Shown here in pieces: positions 247-13,011 of a stretch of 36,298 bases of DNA. Origin of the DNA: Clostridiales bacterium (GTDB lineage Bacteria > Bacillota > Clostridia > Ch29). The number at the start of each line of letters is the position of its first letter. Positions within the stretch are counted from its first letter, which is position 1. Where the stretch lies: NCBI GenBank assembly GCA_012523075.1, contig JAAYJF010000016.1:1-36298 (forward strand). The letters are read 5' to 3'. A program made the translations under genes and the position numbers. The notes beneath the pieces are model-generated. The model searched no databases. It was not told the DNA's origin and was given only the letters and a program-made list of their open reading frames with translations.

Positions 247-257
247 TAAAATTGTTA

Positions 258-285
258 TTGACATATGCCCATAACGGGGTATAAT
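258..285 (+). promoter_or_regulatory. Sigma-A type promoter of the DUF5320 gene with flanking CATATGCC repeats
   Basis: TTGACA (258-263), 16 bp spacer and TATAAT (280-285) form a near-consensus promoter. CATATGCC occurs at 262-269, overlapping the -35 edge, and again at 300-307, just after the -10. They are direct repeats about 38 bp apart. The downstream copy (CATATGCCAATAATG) aligns with CAAATGCCATTTATC at the same place in the promoter at 6727. This layout fits a repressor site. Confidence 0.75.
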
Positions 286-330
286 ATAATTGTAATTAAC
301 ATATGCCAATAATGAAAGGAGGCTGTCAAA

Positions 331-639
331 ATGCCGAGAAGAAACGGAACCGGTCCGATGGGCTTTGGACCACTGACGGGAAGAGGCCTGGGATTTTGTA
401 ACGCGGCAAATGTATCAGGGCTTGGCCTGGGACTGGGTCTAGGCCTTGGGCTGGGACGCGGACGGGGCTTCGGAAGAAGGATGGCTTGTTACTTTGCCGG
501 GTACCCCGGTGGATATCCTGCCACTTATCCTGTCGATGCAAAAACGCAGAAGGAACTGCTTGAACAGCAAAAAGCGATTCTTGAAGACAGGCTTGATATG
601 ATAAGCAAGCAGTTGGACGGCCTTTCGGACAACGATTAG
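331..639 (+). CDS. DUF5320 family Gly-rich small protein
   Basis: This is a 102-aa protein of unknown function. The N-terminus MPRRNGTGPMGFGPLTGRG is the hallmark of DUF5320 proteins, which I know as common neighbours of NifX-fold, Mrp and DUF134 genes in anaerobes. Residues about 30-42 are a Leu-Gly dipeptide run followed by GRGRGFGRR, and residues about 68-95 form a charged probable coiled coil. The start is supported by GAAAGGAGG eight bases upstream and by the promoter at 258-285. The stop codon lies inside a strong hairpin (634-671). The Mrp ATPase downstream and the NifX operon at 6868 suggest a role with metal-cluster proteins, but the molecular role is unknown. Confidence 0.85.
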   Translation: MPRRNGTGPMGFGPLTGRGLGFCNAANVSGLGLGLGLGLGLGRGRGFGRRMACYFAGYPGGYPATYPVDAKTQKELLEQQKAILEDRLDMISKQLDGLSDND

Positions 640-671
640 TATAAGGGGGTCAAATCCCCCTTATACTAATC
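634..671 (+). terminator. Perfect 16-bp hairpin at the end of the DUF5320 gene
   Basis: GATTAGTATAAGGGGG and CCCCCTTATACTAATC are perfect inverted repeats with a six-base loop, beginning within the stop codon. No T-run follows, so it may act as a processing or stability hairpin rather than a full intrinsic terminator. Confidence 0.65.
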
Positions 672-758
672 AATGAGCGCTTGCGCGAATTGTTCGCCGA
701 AACGCGGGCGCTAAAGCGCCTACCGATTGCGTTTTGTGTGCATCGCGCCGCGAGCATG

Positions 759-858
759 TTATCAAATGCCCCTTCAGTGGGGGATTGAGCCCGCTACTGA
801 AGCAAAAATCGGTTTGTCTCCCGCCTGTAGAGGCAGGAGTCTTTAGGGCATTTGATAA
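759..858. other. 100-bp structured element closed by a 13-bp perfect inverted repeat
   Basis: TTATCAAATGCCC (759-771) and GGGCATTTGATAA (846-858) are perfect inverted repeats. Inside are CTTCAGT/ACTGAAG (772-778 and 796-802) and CTCCcGCCT/AGGCaGGAG (818-826 and 831-839), giving a three-way-junction-like fold. The element ends about 25 bp before the DUF134 start. It could be a leader RNA, a MITE derived from an IS200/IS605-type end, or an operator pair containing CAAATGCC. Confidence 0.6.
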
Positions 859-883: not shown

Positions 884-1240
884 TTGCCCAGGCCCAGAAA
901 ACGGAGGAAGGTTTGCAGCTTGCCTCGAATCAGCCTTTTCGGACCGCTCAATTCACCATTCCGTGAAACTGAACCGATAATAATGACGGTGGACGAATAC
1001 GAGACCATCCGTCTTATTGACCGGGAAGGAATGACTCAGGAGGAATGTGCCGAAAGAATGAACGTGGCCCGAACAACCGTACAGCGCATCTATAACGATG
1101 CTAGAAAGAAGCTTTCCGAAGCCCTGGTGCATGGAAAGCTCCTTAGAATTGAAGGCGGTGATTACAAGCTGTGCGACCAGAATCCGCAGGTGTATGGATG
1201 TATAAGATGCCATAGGCACAGGCACGGTAGAAATTTTTAA
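884..1240 (+). CDS. DUF134 family DNA-binding protein (short form)
   Basis: The predicted 118-aa product starts at TTG 884 ([14 protein letters not shown]), which matches the usual DUF134 beginning and has GGGGGAGG about 10 bases upstream. The ORF-track start at 734 would translate the structured element at 759-858 and is rejected. A sigma-region-4-like helix-turn-helix is visible ([17 protein letters not shown], then ARKKLSEAL). The C-terminus holds only one CxxC-like group ([10 protein letters not shown]), so the full zinc ribbon seen in the second DUF134 protein (9815) is missing. It sits 27 bp upstream of the Mrp gene. DUF134 proteins are presumed transcription regulators. I infer control of this cluster, perhaps through the CATATGCC sites. 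Confidence 0.85.
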
Positions 1241-1267: not shown

Positions 1268-2095
1268 ATGAGTGAAAATTGTAATCAGAACTGCAGCGCT
1301 TGCGGCGAAGAATGCAGTGACAGAAAAGAACAGCAGACGGATTTTTCTGCAAAACCCCACGAACAGAGCAACGTAAAAAAGGTAATTGGCGTTATAAGCG
1401 GTAAGGGCGGTGTGGGCAAATCCCTTGTGGCATCCCTACTGGCGGTGCTTATGAACCGCAGGGGCCACAGCACCGCAGTCTTTGACGCGGATATAACCGG
1501 GCCCTCCATTCCCAAGGCCTTTGGCATAAAGGATAAGGCAAGGTCCAACGAACAGGGCCTTTTGCCCATAAAAAGCGAAAAGGGTATTAGTATAATGTCC
1601 ATTAACCTGCTGCTTAAGGACGATACCGACCCTGTTATCTGGAGGGGACCCCTTATTGCGGGTACCGTAAAACAGTTCTGGACCGACGTTGTCTGGGGCG
1701 ATGTGGATTTTATGTTTATAGACATGCCGCCAGGAACCGGTGATGTGGCGCTTACGGTGTTCCAGTCGCTGCCGGTTGACGGAATAATAATAGTTACTTC
1801 GCCCCAGGAGCTTGTATCCATGATAGTATCCAAGGCGGTCAATATGGCAAGAAAGATGAATATTCCCATAATCGGAATAATTGAGAACATGTCCTACCTA
1901 AAATGCCCCGACTGCGGCAAAGAGATTAAGGTGTTCGGTGAAAGCCATATAGACCAGATTGCGGACAAATACGGGGTTCCGGTGCTTGGAAAGCTTCCCA
2001 TCCATCCGGACATTGCCTCCGCCTGTGACAAGGGCCTTATCGAAAACATTGAAGGCAAGTGGCTTGGCAAAACCGCGGAGATACTGGAAAAATAA
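1268..2095 (+). CDS. mrp: Mrp/NBP35-type P-loop ATPase, Fe-S cluster carrier
   Basis: This 275-aa cytosolic protein belongs to the Mrp/ApbC/NBP35 group, which binds a bridging Fe-S cluster and hands it to apo-proteins. The deviant Walker A motif GKGGVGKS is at about residues 45-52, the switch region IDMPPGTGD at about 151-159, and the cluster-binding CPDC at about 213-216. The N-terminus has four extra cysteines (CNQNCSACGEEC, residues 5-16), as in ferredoxin-like extensions of some anaerobe Mrp proteins. AAGGAG precedes the ATG, and a strong terminator follows at 2109. Together with DUF5320, DUF134 and the NifX-fold proteins at 6868 and 8968 it resembles the ORP-MRP system of sulfate reducers. 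The partner here is inferred. Confidence 0.93.
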   Translation: MSENCNQNCSACGEECSDRKEQQTDFSAKPHEQSNVKKVIGVISGKGGVGKSLVASLLAVLMNRRGHSTAVFDADITGPSIPKAFGIKDKARSNEQGLLPIKSEKGISIMSINLLLKDDTDPVIWRGPLIAGTVKQFWTDVVWGDVDFMFIDMPPGTGDVALTVFQSLPVDGIIIVTSPQELVSMIVSKAVNMARKMNIPIIGIIENMSYLKCPDCGKEIKVFGESHIDQIADKYGVPVLGKLPIHPDIASACDKGLIENIEGKWLGKTAEILEK

Positions 2096-6498: not shown

Positions 6499-6726
6499 AT
6501 TTTAACCTCCCTCTGAAGAAAACCCCTGTTCTTTGACAATTTTAGCTCAATACTTCACCAGTAAATAGTATACCAATAATTATCACATTTTCATAATAAT
6601 AATTTGCCCCTGTTGGCGCAACTTAACCCCCTACCTTGCGCATCGGTGCGAACAGACCCCTTCGGCTACCCTTTAAAGCTGTTCCGGAGTGCAAAGTCAG
6701 GAACCCAGAATATGAATAAATAGCAT
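6499..6726. other. Intergenic spacer between divergent transcripts
   Basis: The region holds the upstream sequences of the minus-strand CofE-like gene (a TATACT-like -10 near 6567, with no clear -35). The GC-richer stretch at 6605-6710 shows no ORF or strong hairpin. I recognise nothing else in it. Confidence 0.4.
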
Positions 6727-6771
6727 TTGACAAAAACATAATATGTATATAATATATAATTGGCAAATGCC
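6727..6771 (+). promoter_or_regulatory. Promoter of the NifX/ATPase operon with CAAATGCC operator-like site
   Basis: TTGACA (6727-6732) and TATAAT (6748-6753) are spaced by 15 bp; a second TATAAT lies at 6755-6760. GGCAAATGCC (6762-6771) is a palindrome directly downstream, and GCATTTG (6723-6729) is its inverted partner at the -35. The site CAAATGCCATTTATC aligns with CATATGCCAATAATG of the promoter at 258. An ~85-bp leader with a possible decayed short ORF follows. Confidence 0.7.
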
Positions 6772-6867
6772 ATTTATCTAGGGAGGTGTTAGATTAAACG
6801 ATAGACGTATTAATGAAAAGATAATACATTCAGTGAATGAAAAACAAGAAAAATGGAGGGATATTTC

Positions 6868-7263
6868 ATGAAAATAGCAGTTTCTTCGATGGGAAAGGAT
6901 TTAAGCAGTATGCTGGATGTAAGGTTTGGAAGGTGCAATTGCTTTGTAATCTATGATACAAAAGGCGAACCGGTAAAGGCAATTGGGAATAAGGGCCAAA
7001 TGTCAGGTGGAGGGGCAGGAATTGCAGCAGCCCAGCAAATCATTGATGAAGATGTGGATGTAGTCATTACCGGGAATATGGGACCCAATGCCTTTAACCT
7101 TTTTAAAAACTCGGATATTAAGGTGTACCGATGTGGAAGTATCAAGGTTGAAACGGCGGTGCAACTGTTCAAAGAAGGTAAGTTGGATGAGTTAACCGAA
7201 GCGGGTCCTGCCCATGCAGGGATGGGCACGGGAGCAGGCGGAGGATTCAGAGGGGGAAGATAA
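6868..7263 (+). CDS. NifX/NifB-domain protein (dinitrogenase Fe-Mo cofactor-type fold)
   Basis: The predicted 131-aa protein begins MKIAVSSMGKDLSSMLDVRFGRCNCFVIYD, the classic opening of the NifX/NafY-like fold that holds metal-sulfur clusters, including the Mo-Cu cluster of the orange protein ORP. The central VITGNMGPNAFNLF matches the family. The tail is Gly-rich (GMGTGAGGGFRGGR). The start was moved from 6853 to 6868 because GGAGGG at 6855-6860 gives proper spacing only to the second ATG. No nif genes are present, so this is not a nitrogenase factor. It opens an operon with ferredoxin ATPases, a second NifX-fold protein, Fur and DUF134. Confidence 0.88.
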   Translation: MKIAVSSMGKDLSSMLDVRFGRCNCFVIYDTKGEPVKAIGNKGQMSGGGAGIAAAQQIIDEDVDVVITGNMGPNAFNLFKNSDIKVYRCGSIKVETAVQLFKEGKLDELTEAGPAHAGMGTGAGGGFRGGR

Positions 7264-7264
7264 A

Positions 7265-8095
7265 TTGAACATAGCCATATTAAGCGGAAAGTGAGGTACG
7301 GGAAAAACCACAATAGCCACCAACATTCCCGTTATTACAGGTGCTAATTACATTGATTGTGATGTGGAAGAGCCCAATGGGTTTATATTCTTAAAACCCT
7401 CTCAAATAAAAAGCGAAGAGGTTAAGGTGGATTACCCAGTTGTGGATAGCAGCAGGTGTACCTTATGCGGGGATTGTGCAAAGGTATGCCAGTTTAATGC
7501 ATTAGTGAAGACAAGGAAAGATGTCATACTCTTTGAGAAACTCTGCCATGGCTGCCGTGCCTGCGGGATAGTATGTAAACATGGGGCTTTGACTTTTGGG
7601 AAAAGGATAATAGGTACAATTGAAGAAGGGCAATTTGGTGACTTTATTTGCAAAAGGGGCGTTTTGAATGTAGGAGAACCTATGGCGGTACCTGTTATTA
7701 AAGAATTGTTGAAAAACCTTCCTAAGGGAATAAACCTTATTGATTGTGCCCCGGGGACATCCTGCAATGTAGTGAGTTCCCTTCAATATGCAGATGGTGC
7801 AATACTGGTAACAGAACCTTCTTCCTTTGGGCTTCATGATTTAAAAATGGCAGTGCAGCTTATAAGGAATTTTAATCTTCCCTTTGGTGTCATTATCAAT
7901 AAATATAAAACCGGGAATGACAGAATCCAGAGATACTGTAGCGAAGAAAATATAAAGATATTAGGTATTATACCTTACCGTAGAGAAGCGGCAGAGGTAT
8001 ATTCCTCAGGGAAAATGATTGTGGAACTACCCGAATATAAAGAAATATTTGAGAAGATTGCAGAGGAATTGAAGGAGGTGTTCCATTGGAACTAA
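7265..8095 (+). pseudogene. MinD-superfamily ATPase with inserted ferredoxin domain, broken by TGA in the P-loop
   Basis: A TTG start directly after the NifX stop (with GGGGGAAG upstream) gives MNIAILSGK, then an in-frame TGA at 7292-7294, then GTGKTTIATN. The family motif is SGKGGTGKTT, so one Gly codon (GGA) has become TGA. The rest stays open to 8095 and includes IDCDVEEPNG, two [4Fe-4S] motifs (CTLCGDCAKVC and CHGCRACGIVC), and the C-terminal MinD-type region. The ORF-track start (GTG 7364) lacks the P-loop and has no ribosome site. The intact paralogue starts at 8086 with a 10-bp overlap. In the D. vulgaris ORP cluster two such ATPases act side by side. The lesion could be a real nonsense mutation or a sequence error. 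Confidence 0.85.
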
Positions 8096-8946
8096 CAGTA
8101 ATAAGCGGAAAAGGAGGCACGGGTAAAACCACAATAGCCTTAGCCCTAGCTGAATTAGCAGAAGATTCTATAAAAGCAGACTGCGATGTGGATTCGCCCA
8201 ATCTGCATCTTTTTTACAAGGGAAAAGATGTGAAGAAGGAATGCTTTTATGGAGAAAAGAAAGCAGTTGCTGAAAAAAGCCTTTGCATAGGCTGCGGCCA
8301 ATGTGAAAAGGTGTGCCAATTTGACGCAATCAGAAACGGTGTAGTGAACTCCTTTAAATGTGAGGGCTGTGGTGCCTGCACATTGGTTTGCCCTCAAAAA
8401 TCCATCAGTTTAAAAGACGAAAAAACCGCTGATGTTTATATAACTCAAACTAACAAAGGAATTATTTCAAGGGCCCAGATGGAGGTAGGCAGCGAGGGGT
8501 CGGGAAAACTTATAACTATGCTTCGCAGTAATGCCAGGAAATTTGCGGCTAAGGACACTCTTATCATTATTGACGGTTCCCCGGGAATAGGTTGTCCTGT
8601 AATATCTTCAGTTACAGGAAGTGATGCGGTATTGATTGTTACAGAGCCTACCCAGTCGGGCCTGGAGGATTTTAAGAGAGTGATGGAGTTATGCAGGCAT
8701 TTTGGGGTTCTTACTCTCGCCTGTATCAATAAGTATGATATTAATGAAAAGAAAGCAGAGGAAATTGAAGGTTTTTGCAGAGAAAACGATGTATACGTAA
8801 TAGGAAAAATACCCTATGATGATACGGTTTTGAAGTCAATTAACGAACTGGTGCCTATTGTTCATTATAGGGACAGTAAGGCAAATCAGGCCATAAGACA
8901 GATGTGGGAAAATATCCGTGAACACATATATTGCTTAAATCAATAA
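8086..8946 (+). CDS. MinD-superfamily P-loop ATPase with inserted ferredoxin domain
   Basis: The 286-aa protein has an intact deviant Walker A, GKGGTGKTT (residues 8-16), a CDVDSPNLH switch, and two [4Fe-4S] sites inserted in the ATPase fold (C67/70/73/77 and C92/95/98/102). IIDGSPGIGCPVISS is the Walker B-like segment. Homologues sit next to NifX-fold proteins in anaerobes and are thought to couple ATP hydrolysis to metal-cluster assembly or positioning; DVU2103/DVU2104 of the ORP complex are the closest known parallels. The start is TTG with GAAGGAGGTG about six bases upstream, inside the end of the broken paralogue. It is the only intact ferredoxin ATPase of the operon. Confidence 0.9.
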   Translation: MELTVISGKGGTGKTTIALALAELAEDSIKADCDVDSPNLHLFYKGKDVKKECFYGEKKAVAEKSLCIGCGQCEKVCQFDAIRNGVVNSFKCEGCGACTLVCPQKSISLKDEKTADVYITQTNKGIISRAQMEVGSEGSGKLITMLRSNARKFAAKDTLIIIDGSPGIGCPVISSVTGSDAVLIVTEPTQSGLEDFKRVMELCRHFGVLTLACINKYDINEKKAEEIEGFCRENDVYVIGKIPYDDTVLKSINELVPIVHYRDSKANQAIRQMWENIREHIYCLNQ

Positions 8947-8967
8947 ACTCTAAGGAGGCCCATGTTA

Positions 8968-9327
8968 ATGAAAATAATAGCGGTTGCAAGCGAAGGCAAG
9001 CATGTTAGCGGACACTTTGGACATTGTGAAGCATTTGCAGTGTATGAGGTTGAAGGGGATGAGGTAGTAAAGAAGGATTTTATACAAAATCCGGGCCATA
9101 GACCGGGATTTCTGCCTGAATTTCTAAGGGAATTAGGCGTTAATGTTATAGTCTCTGGCGGTATGGGAGAAACAGCCCAGCGGTTGTTTGCCCAAAACAG
9201 TATAAATGTGATTGTGGGAGCAGAAGGTTATTGTGATGATGTCATCCAGCAATATTTAGATGGAGAGTTGAAATCCACAGGAAGCATATGCAGGGAACAT
9301 CAGCACAAAGACCTCTGTCATGAATAA
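8968..9327 (+). CDS. Second NifX/NifB-domain protein
   Basis: The predicted 119-aa protein starts MKIIAVASEGKHVSGHFGHCEAFAVYEVEGDE, the usual form of the NifX-like family (GHFGHCE is typical). VIVSGGMGETAQRLF matches the central loop. The C-terminus is His/Cys-rich (CREHQHKDLCHE), a possible metal site. AAGGAGG lies ten bases before ATG 8968; the upstream ATG at 8962 is only four bases from it and is less likely. It differs from the 6868 protein in lacking the Gly-rich tail. The two could form a pair of cluster carriers served by the neighbouring ATPase; this is inference from gene order. Confidence 0.85.
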   Translation: MKIIAVASEGKHVSGHFGHCEAFAVYEVEGDEVVKKDFIQNPGHRPGFLPEFLRELGVNVIVSGGMGETAQRLFAQNSINVIVGAEGYCDDVIQQYLDGELKSTGSICREHQHKDLCHE

Positions 9328-9344: not shown

Positions 9345-9830
9345 ATGGACGAGGTGATGAGTAATGCTCTGACAAAGGATAAGTTTTCTTTTGTAAAAAA
9401 GTTGATAGAGAAAAACGGATTTAGATTTACAAGACAAAGAAAACTGATACTGGAACAGTTTTTACTGAATGAAAGGCATTTGAATGTGGAAGAAATATAT
9501 CAAAGGCTGAAGGGAGCCAATATTGGTCTTGCTACAGTATATAGGAATGTAAAGATATTTAGTAGTATTGGCATAGTAAAAGAAATTGTCGTGGATGGAG
9601 TAAGTTATTATGAGTTGAAAATTTACAGCAAAAAGCCCCTGCATATTCATTTCCAGTGTGTTGAATGTAATGATATAATAGACATTGATGAAAGAGGAAT
9701 TGCTTTAGAATATTTAAAGTTGAATAGGACCATAGAAGATAAAAATGATTTGGAAATCTATGATGTAGATATAATGTTCATTGGACTATGTATAAGATGC
9801 AGGGGGGTAAATAAATGGCAAGACCGATAA
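9345..9830 (+). CDS. Fur-family metalloregulator
   Basis: This 161-aa protein has the Fur winged helix: GFRFTRQRKLILEQFL, HLNVEEIYQRLKGANIGLATVYRNVKIFSSIGIVKE. The dimer/metal domain follows, with HIHFQCVECNDI and a final CIRC, so both structural CxxC pairs are present. The HHxHxx core is reduced to KPLHIHF. Whether it senses iron, zinc, manganese or peroxide cannot be told. The ATG has TAGGAGTG eight bases upstream, and the 3' end overlaps the DUF134 gene by 16 bp. It is a candidate regulator of its own operon and of the feo operon, whose promoter has a strong Fur box at 32474. Confidence 0.88.
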   Translation: MDEVMSNALTKDKFSFVKKLIEKNGFRFTRQRKLILEQFLLNERHLNVEEIYQRLKGANIGLATVYRNVKIFSSIGIVKEIVVDGVSYYELKIYSKKPLHIHFQCVECNDIIDIDERGIALEYLKLNRTIEDKNDLEIYDVDIMFIGLCIRCRGVNKWQDR

Positions 9831-10249
9831 AATGCAGAAAAGTTGAGTTTTTTCCGGAGAATACTTATTTCATACCGTTAGGCAAAAAAAAGTGTGATGT
9901 AGAAGAAATTACTCTCAAGTTAGAAGAACTTGAAGCCATGAGGTTAAAAGACATTGAAGGGCTTAATCAGGAAGAATGTGCTGAAAGGATGCATGTTTCA
10001 AGACAGACTTTTCAAAACGTCATAGACAGTGCAAGAAAGAAGGTAGCCATAGCCCTTACGCAAGGCAATGCTATACACATAAGCGGAGGGCACTATACTT
10101 CAGGTTTATGCAAATTTAAGTGCGTAAACTGTGGCAAAGTTTATAGCATGAATTATGAACAGGATAGATATACCTGTCCTTCCTGCGGTGCAAATGAAAT
10201 AGTTTGTGAGAAAAAGAATAGATTCTGTCATAGATGGCGCGGGAAATAG
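9815..10249 (+). CDS. DUF134 family DNA-binding protein with C-terminal zinc ribbon
   Basis: This 144-aa protein begins MARPIKCRKVEFFPENTYFIPLG, the usual DUF134 start. The helix-turn-helix [31 protein letters not shown] is very close to that of the 884 protein. Unlike that one it keeps a full zinc ribbon (CVNCGKVYS...CPSCG) and a Cys/His tail (CEKKNRFCHRW). It ends the NifX operon and overlaps the Fur gene by 16 bp. I infer that one or both DUF134 proteins bind the shared CAWATGCC motif at the two operon promoters. Confidence 0.9.
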   Translation: MARPIKCRKVEFFPENTYFIPLGKKKCDVEEITLKLEELEAMRLKDIEGLNQEECAERMHVSRQTFQNVIDSARKKVAIALTQGNAIHISGGHYTSGLCKFKCVNCGKVYSMNYEQDRYTCPSCGANEIVCEKKNRFCHRWRGK

Positions 10250-11340: not shown

Positions 11341-13011
11341 TTAATTGGCCGGGTCGTATCCCACCACCGTCCATATACCGGTGGAGTCCTGCCTTACCAG
11401 GCGCTTCAGAAACACTTTTTCTATGGGAGTATTGTCATCGGTCACCTTTACCACTGCTTCAGCACCGTTGTTTTCAATAACTTCCAGCTCTTCATATTCA
11501 ATTGGATATTCGCCTACAATGCCCTCCGGCGATATTTCAAGGCTAACAAATACCTGGGCAACATAGACGGGGTCAAGTCTCCAGGGAGAATGCCCTGCAT
11601 CCACGCTTTTCTGCTCATTCTCTTCCATTTCCAGGTCAACCGGCACCTCTATCGCTGACCTGGCAAAAGACTGTTGGCCAGTAGAGGGCATCTCCAGGGC
11701 ACCTCCTACCAGGCCTTCCGCAAAGTCGGCCATCTGTTCCAACGGAGCATCCCCTATCACAGCGTACTCGTACCCATCCTGCCGCCAGCGTATGGAACTT
11801 ATACCGGCAATACCGGCATACTGCCCCCCACTTCTTAGTATCCCGTGCTCCTCACCGACCGGTGACTGGACCTCGGCGGGGCTGCCATTCACCTGCGCAA
11901 ATATTGAAGTTGAAGCCCGCTTAAACTCCCCATCGGCTTTGCCCTGGACCACCACAACCTTTGCTTTCCTATCCCCAGCGATGTAATACAGCTTCACAAG
12001 GCCGGTATCGGGTACTATGGCTACCCCCTCCGGGTCAAAGCCCGCCGGTACTTCCCCGGGCACCTTTGGTGCAAACCCAAGGGCCTCGGCGGCTTCTGTC
12101 ATGCTGTTTACAAACTGTTCCGGATTCTTATCAATCTCACTGTAACCATCGGGCACTTCCAGCACAAGAAGTTCACCGGGTATCACATCGCCAAAGTTAA
12201 TACTTGTATAGGTCACGGTGGACTGCAGCGCATTTTGCATCGCACTTTGTTTTTGTAGCGGCAATCTTGTCTCTTTGTCCACCCATATCCTGTAGGGTGC
12301 TCCACCCTTGGGGGTTACCTCCAAAACATCCGTTTTTCTTCCGGCAATGGTATCCTCTCCCACTACACTGGTTGACAGCGCGTTCTTCGCCTGCTCTATT
12401 TCATTGCCCAGTTCAAATATGAAGCGATAGGCGTCGGGAAATGCCGGGAACACGTTTACTTCTCTACGGTCTGGCCTTACCTGCCATTTGCTCCCGCCGT
12501 TATTTACGGTAATTATATCCTTCTGCCAGCCCTCCAGCCCCCTTATATAATAACGGCCTTCTTTGTCCGCCCATACCTCCAACTTGGTCCGCAGGTTTTG
12601 CTGTCCCTGGGCGTTGCTGGTCACAATCTCAAGGATACCGTGGTAGGCTTTTATCCCCCGGAAGGCTTCTTCCATTGCGTGTACAACATCCACATTCCCC
12701 AGGGGCAGTATGGAACTTAGCATAACCGCTATAACCAGTACCGCGGCCATCCCCGCCAGTCCGCCCAGCCAAACCCGTTTCTTGCCCTTTTGATACCCTT
12801 TGCCGGTTTGCCTGCTTCTTACGGCAGCGGCAAGCTCCTTTGGGTAATCCCCCTTGGGCAGGGCAGGCTCCCTCAGGCTACGGACCAATCGTACCGTACT
12901 GTAGAGCCGTTCAAGCTCCGGCGAATCCCCTGGTGCCCCATGCTGCTCCGGCTGCCGCTCTGCGTTTAGCCTGTCAATATATTCGGACAATTTCTTTTCA
13001 TTACCATCCAT
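11341..13011 (-). CDS. Large membrane-bound probable anti-sigma factor with LolA/RseB-like outer domain
   Basis: The predicted 556-aa protein has a short cytoplasmic N-terminus (about 1-85), one membrane helix (VWLGGLAGMAAVLVIAVMLSSILPLG, about 85-112) and a large outer part. The first outer section (AFRGIKAYHGILEIVTSNAQGQ..., AGRKTDVLEVTPKG, RIWVDKETRLPLQKQ) resembles the LolA/RseB/DUF2092 lipid- or stress-sensing fold; the middle (GFAPKVPGEVPAGFDPEGV...IRWRQDGYEYAVIGD) resembles DUF4367. The start at 13011 has AGGGAGGGG upstream, overlapping the sigma gene by 11 bp. Coupling to an ECF sigma gene makes it the likely anti-sigma factor. There is no clear zinc motif in the N-terminus. Confidence 0.8.
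   Translation of the reverse strand: MDGNEKKLSEYIDRLNAERQPEQHGAPGDSPELERLYSTVRLVRSLREPALPKGDYPKELAAAVRSRQTGKGYQKGKKRVWLGGLAGMAAVLVIAVMLSSILPLGNVDVVHAMEEAFRGIKAYHGILEIVTSNAQGQQNLRTKLEVWADKEGRYYIRGLEGWQKDIITVNNGGSKWQVRPDRREVNVFPAFPDAYRFIFELGNEIEQAKNALSTSVVGEDTIAGRKTDVLEVTPKGGAPYRIWVDKETRLPLQKQSAMQNALQSTVTYTSINFGDVIPGELLVLEVPDGYSEIDKNPEQFVNSMTEAAEALGFAPKVPGEVPAGFDPEGVAIVPDTGLVKLYYIAGDRKAKVVVVQGKADGEFKRASTSIFAQVNGSPAEVQSPVGEEHGILRSGGQYAGIAGISSIRWRQDGYEYAVIGDAPLEQMADFAEGLVGGALEMPSTGQQSFARSAIEVPVDLEMEENEQKSVDAGHSPWRLDPVYVAQVFVSLEISPEGIVGEYPIEYEELEVIENNGAEAVVKVTDDNTPIEKVFLKRLVRQDSTGIWTVVGYDPAN

Follow-up and report, generated by a model that had tools for sequence, protein, structure and literature searches.

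The window, that is, the whole stretch of 36,298 nucleotides analysed here, carries two operons in which genes for iron-sulfur (Fe-S) carrier and NifX-type proteins are found together with genes of the DUF134 family (DUF134/UPF0251/COG1342, PF02001). The genome has just two DUF134 genes, both located in the window and both scoring above the curated PF02001 cut-off of 27 bits. The genes, promoter elements and predicted operators are listed in Table 1. In the second operon, the gene for the first MinD/ferredoxin ATPase has an in-frame TGA codon within the Walker A motif (SGK-TGA-GTGKT), and since the frame is open on either side of it, this is a point mutation or a sequencing error.

Table 1. 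Genes, promoter elements, predicted operators and insert of the two operons (positions in the window)
Feature	Position	Strand	Basis and remarks
Operator 1a (predicted)	254-275		Palindrome GTTATTGACATATGCCCATAAC, -35 hexamer inside; 30.9 bits, top match of the window
-35 of promoter 1, TTGACA	258-263	+	Sequence; is one half-site of operator 1a
-10 of promoter 1, TATAAT	280-285	+	Sequence; spacer 16 bp
Operator 1b (predicted)	292-313		Near +1, 38 bp 3' of 1a; 27.9 bits
DUF5320 gene, first of operon 1	331-639	+	Pfam PF17253, 98 bits
Insert between DUF5320 and DUF134a	~669-854		Holds third CAAATGCCC; missing in sister species G001 and G002
DUF134a, predicted regulator of operon 1	884-1240	+	PF02001, 83-83.4 bits; short Cys/His tail, helix RTTVQR
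Mrp/NBP35-type Fe-S carrier ATPase	1268-2095	+	PF10609, 305 bits
Operator 2a (predicted)	6716-6737		AAATAGCATTTGACAAAAAC, -35 hexamer inside; 17.4 bits, fourth in the window
-35 of promoter 2, TTGACA	6727-6732	+	Sequence
-10 of promoter 2, TATAAT	6748-6753	+	Sequence; alternative TAATAT 6750-6755, 17-bp spacer
Operator 2b (predicted)	6756-6777		ATAATTGGCAAATGCCATTTAT, 40 bp 3' of 2a; 23.5 bits
NifX-type (Nitro_FeMo-Co) protein	6868-7263	+	PF02579, 80.7 bits
MinD/ferredoxin ATPase, first	7265-8095	+	Sequence; interrupted by TGA 7292-7294; ORF from 7364 matches Fer4 + ParA
MinD/ferredoxin ATPase, second	8086-8946	+	PF01656 + Fer4
NifX-type protein, second	8962-9327	+	PF02579, 81.3 bits
Fur-family regulator, rival regulator of operon 2	9345-9830	+	PF01475, 81.3 bits
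DUF134b, predicted regulator of operon 2	9815-10249	+	PF02001, 70.9-72.1 bits; zinc-ribbon tail, helix RQTFQN

Palindromes at the two promoters

A sequence-only reading of this DNA had pointed to CAWATGCC words lying after the -10 boxes of the two promoters, with partner sites near the -35 boxes, and proposed them as the operator of DUF134 proteins. The words are indeed found there (CATATGCCAATAATG at 300-314 and CAAATGCCATTTATC at 6764-6778), as are the partners (CATATGCCCATAAC at 262 and GCATTTGACA at 6723). The sites are real, but the one-sided word is not the operator motif: the words are halves of palindromes of 20-22 bp, approximately TTATTGRCA-WW-TGYCAATAA, which overlap the -35 box and +1. 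Four such palindromes were identified, one pair upstream of DUF5320-DUF134a-Mrp and the other upstream of NifX-MinD-MinD-NifX-Fur-DUF134b, with centre-to-centre spacings of 38 and 40 bp, respectively. A matrix built from other bacterial families only ranks these four first in the window, the next match having 5.4 bits, and 100 Markov sequences as long as the window gave 15.6 bits at best. Operator 1a is kept in sister species, and the -35 register of promoter 1 is common to most promoters of the class.

The whole genome was screened by pattern search. Across its 2.04 Mb there are three exact copies of CAWATGCCNWTWAT, two of them in the window and the third at the -35 box of a gene on contig C79 that encodes a CGGC-domain protein. 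When one mismatch was allowed, the one-sided word showed no enrichment over the reversed control in this genome (17+12 vs 20+18), so that taken alone it is weak evidence and the signal is carried by the palindrome and its position; for this reason the word was dropped as a motif and the palindrome took its place. The reading of the repeats as an RNA element was also rejected, as no Rfam match was obtained within the window and the upstream sites precede +1.

A repeat, GGGACAAAGAACCGTCCCCTGTCCC, is common to positions 223-246 of the window and positions ~1570-1600 of locus L018, shortly upstream of the DUF5320 and CGGC promoters. This genome has three promoters with operators, and the two named here are among them.

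The third copy of the word that had been noted before DUF134a does exist, at 763-771, but it was rejected as an operator because it lies inside an insert missing from two sister species and is no operator-like palindrome. Within this insert it forms one arm of an inverted repeat. The insert has an inverted repeat of 13 bp (TTATCAAATGCCC ... GGGCATTTGATAA), a hairpin, TCCCGCCTGTAGAGGCAGGAG, and, elsewhere in the genome on contig C140, one partial copy (80%). The insert may be a small transposon remnant.

Sites at DUF134 loci of related bacteria

The order- and family-level samples comprised six genomes only, and the class and a second phylum were therefore used as well. DUF134 was present in all five relatives of the family, whose DUF134, NifX or DUF5320 promoters have the same palindromes, mostly paired, in flanking sequence that has turned over. 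Such a palindrome, retained between species at the promoter of its predicted regulator, is typical of an autoregulatory palindrome-binding repressor.

A symmetric matrix was built from 28 sites of the window's family (consensus RTTATTGGCATATGCCAATAAY). In 107 DUF134 loci from other families of Clostridia (1.84 Mb), it detected 144 sites with scores of 18 bits or more, and 130 of these are no further than 4 kb from DUF134. The mean was 0.97 sites in total when 30 matrices with permuted half-columns were run on the same loci. The class sample includes Caldicoprobacter and Petroclostridium, and 80 loci, gathered by a contig scan with a four-sequence b1 alignment, are biased to the helix class b1 described below. 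In Desulfobacterota, the phylum of L263 (Desulfobulbaceae), with the matrix of the window's family only, a site of at least 15 bits was found in 19 of 32 loci, compared with a permuted mean of 0.05. The motif search near such clusters in relatives, which had been suggested as a check, thus gave strong enrichment in the class and in the second phylum. No site of at least 17 bits was present within 4.5 kb in 25 of 121 class loci, and the Desulfobacterota DUF134 proteins with helix RPTVTR (L287, L289, L294 and L295) had no site of the known types; the latter may have a different operator. Both observations indicate that some members of the family use other or degenerate sites.

Co-occurrence is built in where loci are sampled by DUF134, which is why tests on whole genomes and on NifX loci matter. 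DUF134 was found in 125 of 291 sampled genomes of the class Clostridia (113 over the cut-off) and in 48 of 148 of the phylum Desulfobacterota, with control matches in methanogens and B. subtilis. Thermoanaerobacterium saccharolyticum has a UPF0251 gene as well, Tsac_2480 (PMC5886521). Pattern matches (at most three mismatches) averaged 3.14 per genome in the 113 DUF134-positive Clostridia and 0.89 in the 178 DUF134-negative ones (Mann-Whitney p ~1e-24, uncorrected for kinship); with the reversed pattern the values were 1.08 and 0.61. NifX genes occur in 10 of 40 genomes lacking DUF134, and none of their 12 loci has a site (best score 8.6 bits), whereas 44 of the 79 NifX genes in DUF134 loci have one within 1.5 kb. 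The site therefore goes with DUF134 and not with NifX clusters as such.

Paired sites are mostly spaced by 38-40 bp (37 of 54), with a second group at 34-36 bp. A direction could be assigned to 99 promoters, and in 81 of them the upstream operator contains TTGACA (at most one mismatch), positioned at either of two fixed offsets and followed after 16-18 bp by a -10 box (at most two mismatches). For TTGACA at other places in the loci, the proportion with such a -10 is 28%. The operator is thus in register with the promoter, and its overlap with promoter elements is a further characteristic of autoregulatory repressors. Selection for a -35 box does not account for the palindrome, because neither its mirrored half nor the downstream copy has a function in the promoter. 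The overlap with the -35 box suggests repression, and activation by the downstream site would be compatible with it.

The genes downstream of the sites encode DUF134, DUF5320, NifX, Mrp and MinD/ferredoxin proteins and, in single cases, FeoA, NifU_N, CGGC, metallo-beta-lactamase-fold and Crp-family proteins. Solitary DUF134 genes with a site directly upstream were also found (L106 and L135). In L117 an operator-like palindrome (ATGGGCAAAAGCCCAA) is placed at 12064, before a FeoA gene (12281-12520), which suggests a tie to ferrous iron uptake.

Fold and recognition helix of DUF134

Matches to Sigma70_r4, together with Foldseek matches to sigma region 4, identify a region-4-like helix-turn-helix in DUF134. 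The AlphaFold models, which are of monomers and show no dimer interface, have a mean pLDDT of ~80 (79.8 for DUF134b) and a core above 90. Foldseek matched them to S. aureus SigB (8x6g), SigR (5fgm) and sigmaE region 4 on -35 DNA (2h27), with rmsd of 0.5-0.9 A over 45-49 residues, probabilities of 0.97-1.00 and E-values above 0.05, the domain being short. Region 4 of SigR was matched by the zinc-ribbon model of DUF134b; the top matches of that model, MCM and HypA folds, fall on the ribbon and were discarded as irrelevant to the DNA-binding part. No relative was retrieved by a sequence search of the PDB. The two proteins of the window (117 and 144 aa) gave region-4 matches only and none to sigma region 2, which indicates that they are not sigma factors. 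Archaea that host DUF134 have no sigma factors.

One-frame fusions of DUF134 with NifX (Nitro_FeMo-Co) were observed in six class loci (L059, L143, L056, L067, L082 and L158), two of them confirmed in Pfam. Most have a His-rich tail after NifX.

Four operator types track four classes of the DUF134 recognition helix. Class a (helix [TS]T[VI]Q) is found with TTGACA-TA-TGTCAA (consensus TTATTGACATATGTCAATAA), class b1 (helix [QPS]TFQR, zinc ribbon) with TGGGCA-TA-TGCCCA (TTATGGGCATATGCCCATAA), class b2 (helix QTFQN/L, zinc ribbon) with TTGGCA-WW-TGCCAA (TTATTGGCAWWTGCCAATAA) and class g (helix GT[FL]QR) with TGTGCA-TA-TGCACA (TAATGTGCATATGCACATTA). A subgroup with helix RGT[FL]QR (L053, L055, L068, L111, L126, L130 and L131) has its own operator, TGTGCATATGCACA, near the DUF134 gene. 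The mutual information between helix class and operator type is 1.36 bits, against a maximum of 0.75 in 5,000 permutations. With one genome left out at a time, the operators predicted the helix class in 74 of 80 genome-class units, and for paralogues in 13 multi-class genomes, where host taxonomy is constant, 26 of 28 units were right.

The variable positions of the helix are the second and the sixth, which in our own alignment we take to be equivalent to E585 and Q589 of E. coli sigma70, residues in contact with the -35 box. With Arg at position 6, G is found at half-site position 2 in 89 of 116 halves, compared with 2 of 117 for other residues, TTGACA halves being excluded and the halves taken as units that are not phylogenetically independent. 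The rule does not reflect one clade, Arg being present in three classes (a, b1 and g). The corresponding counts in Desulfobacterota, again of non-independent halves, were 17 of 22 for Arg and 0 of 8 for Asn, and helices read afterwards point in the same direction (QTFGR and PTFSR with G or A; QTFGN of L314 with T). If the two variable positions form a readable code, Arg would read G, and Asn or Gly would be paired with T at half-site position 2.

The covariation with the recognition helix and the enrichment at DUF134 loci of relatives both support the proposal, made in the sequence-only reading, that these are DUF134 operators. Among open papers, queries for DUF134, COG1342, UPF0251 and the palindrome retrieved no operator, regulon or role.

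Predicted mechanism and its significance

From the sequence comparisons, the palindromes are very probably the operators of the DUF134 protein of the same operon, which would act as a dimer on inverted -35-like half-sites, repressing its own and Fe-S/NifX operons. Binding of DUF134 to the palindromes is strongly supported and repression is likely. The least supported part is the signal: our guess is an Fe-S or metal signal acting via the C-terminal Cys-rich tail, the zinc ribbon or the NifX domain. In the mechanism we propose, a DUF134 dimer would occupy two inverted TTGACA-like hexamers placed two bases apart, the upstream operator holding the -35 box and a second operator, 34-40 bp downstream, lying near +1. 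With sites at these positions, DUF134 on its operators should be a competitor of RNA polymerase and so repress its own operon and a few NifX, Mrp and Fe-S carrier genes. DUF134a would bind at 254-313, and the targets of DUF134b would be 6716-6777 and the CGGC-domain gene of contig C79. The signal, perhaps Fe-S or metal status, would be read by the Cys-rich tail or by a NifX domain fused to DUF134.

That the repeats arose by chance, or as a mere product of -35 selection, is hardly credible. Two points speak for it, the -35 consensus being TTGACA and the one-sided word, at one mismatch, showing no genome-wide enrichment, but neither the right half (TGTCAA) nor the downstream copy has a promoter role, class g does without TTGACA, and permuted controls give about one match in the 1.84 Mb that hold 144 sites. 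It is also very improbable that the palindromes are operators of the Fur-family protein of operon 2. Fur proteins bind palindromes at metal-related promoters, and this one is co-transcribed with DUF134b; however, a Fur gene is close to only 9 of 96 site-bearing loci, which is not the co-occurrence expected of a Fur regulon, and sites are present without Fur in the first operon and in sister loci such as L113, L119 and L122. Moreover, the palindrome is unlike the Fur box as generally known, and the operator type follows the DUF134 helix.

An unlinked regulator of NifX/Mrp clusters might own the sites, DUF134 merely travelling along with them. Sites do occur upstream of NifX, Mrp and MinD genes that are not near DUF134, and sampling by DUF134 accounts for part of the co-occurrence. 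We nevertheless regard this as improbable, given that no site is found at NifX loci where the genome lacks DUF134, that solitary DUF134 genes are directly adjoined by one, and that such a regulator fails to explain why the operator changes with the DUF134 helix between paralogues of the same genome. Finally, DUF134 could act on the sites mainly as an activator, a sigma-like factor or a sigma competitor and not as a classical repressor, a role to which both the region-4 fold and a half-site that, in 81 of 99 promoters, is the -35 hexamer aligned with a -10 box would lend themselves. This seems unlikely, since the window proteins match region 4 and not sigma region 2, good sigma70 boxes are already there, and the sites cover the -35 box and +1.

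The predicted DUF134-operator pair can be compared with the binding of sigma70 region 4 to the -35 element, with which it shares the helix-turn-helix fold and, in class a, the hexamer TTGACA. Unlike region 4, DUF134 is a stand-alone protein of ~120-160 aa, has no region-2 match, is predicted to use two inverted hexamers and varies at the second and sixth positions of the recognition helix along with its operator. The evidence is of the same kind as that for the transcription factor-operator codes of the IclR (PMC8222616) and GntR (PMC4494728) families, i.e. motifs and correlation between recognition residues and operator bases, although the protein family is another one and the DUF134 half-site coincides with the -35 box of the promoter. 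As to the regulated genes, MrpORP of Desulfovibrio vulgaris has the same modules, a Mrp/NBP35 ATPase and a NifX-like dinitrogenase-cofactor (Di-Nase) domain, both of which bind Fe-S clusters (PMC6345978). That study concerns protein function, and its abstract does not include DUF134 (PMC6345978); unlike in MrpORP, the domains found here are mostly separate, some being fused to DUF134.

Beyond the operators themselves, we are inclined to favour a wider model in which regulators built from region 4 act on mirrored -35 boxes, so that the operator is promoter DNA, with a two-residue helix code and a NifX domain, in trans or fused, reporting Fe-S status. The analysis yields a predicted DUF134 binding site in four variants with a predicted residue-base rule and, for a common family, a predicted regulon that in anaerobes consists of Fe-S and NifX-type genes. 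The predicted site marks genes for iron-sulfur cofactor handling in anaerobic bacteria, and a sigma domain that reads the -35 box appears to work there as a dimeric regulator on mirrored -35 boxes.
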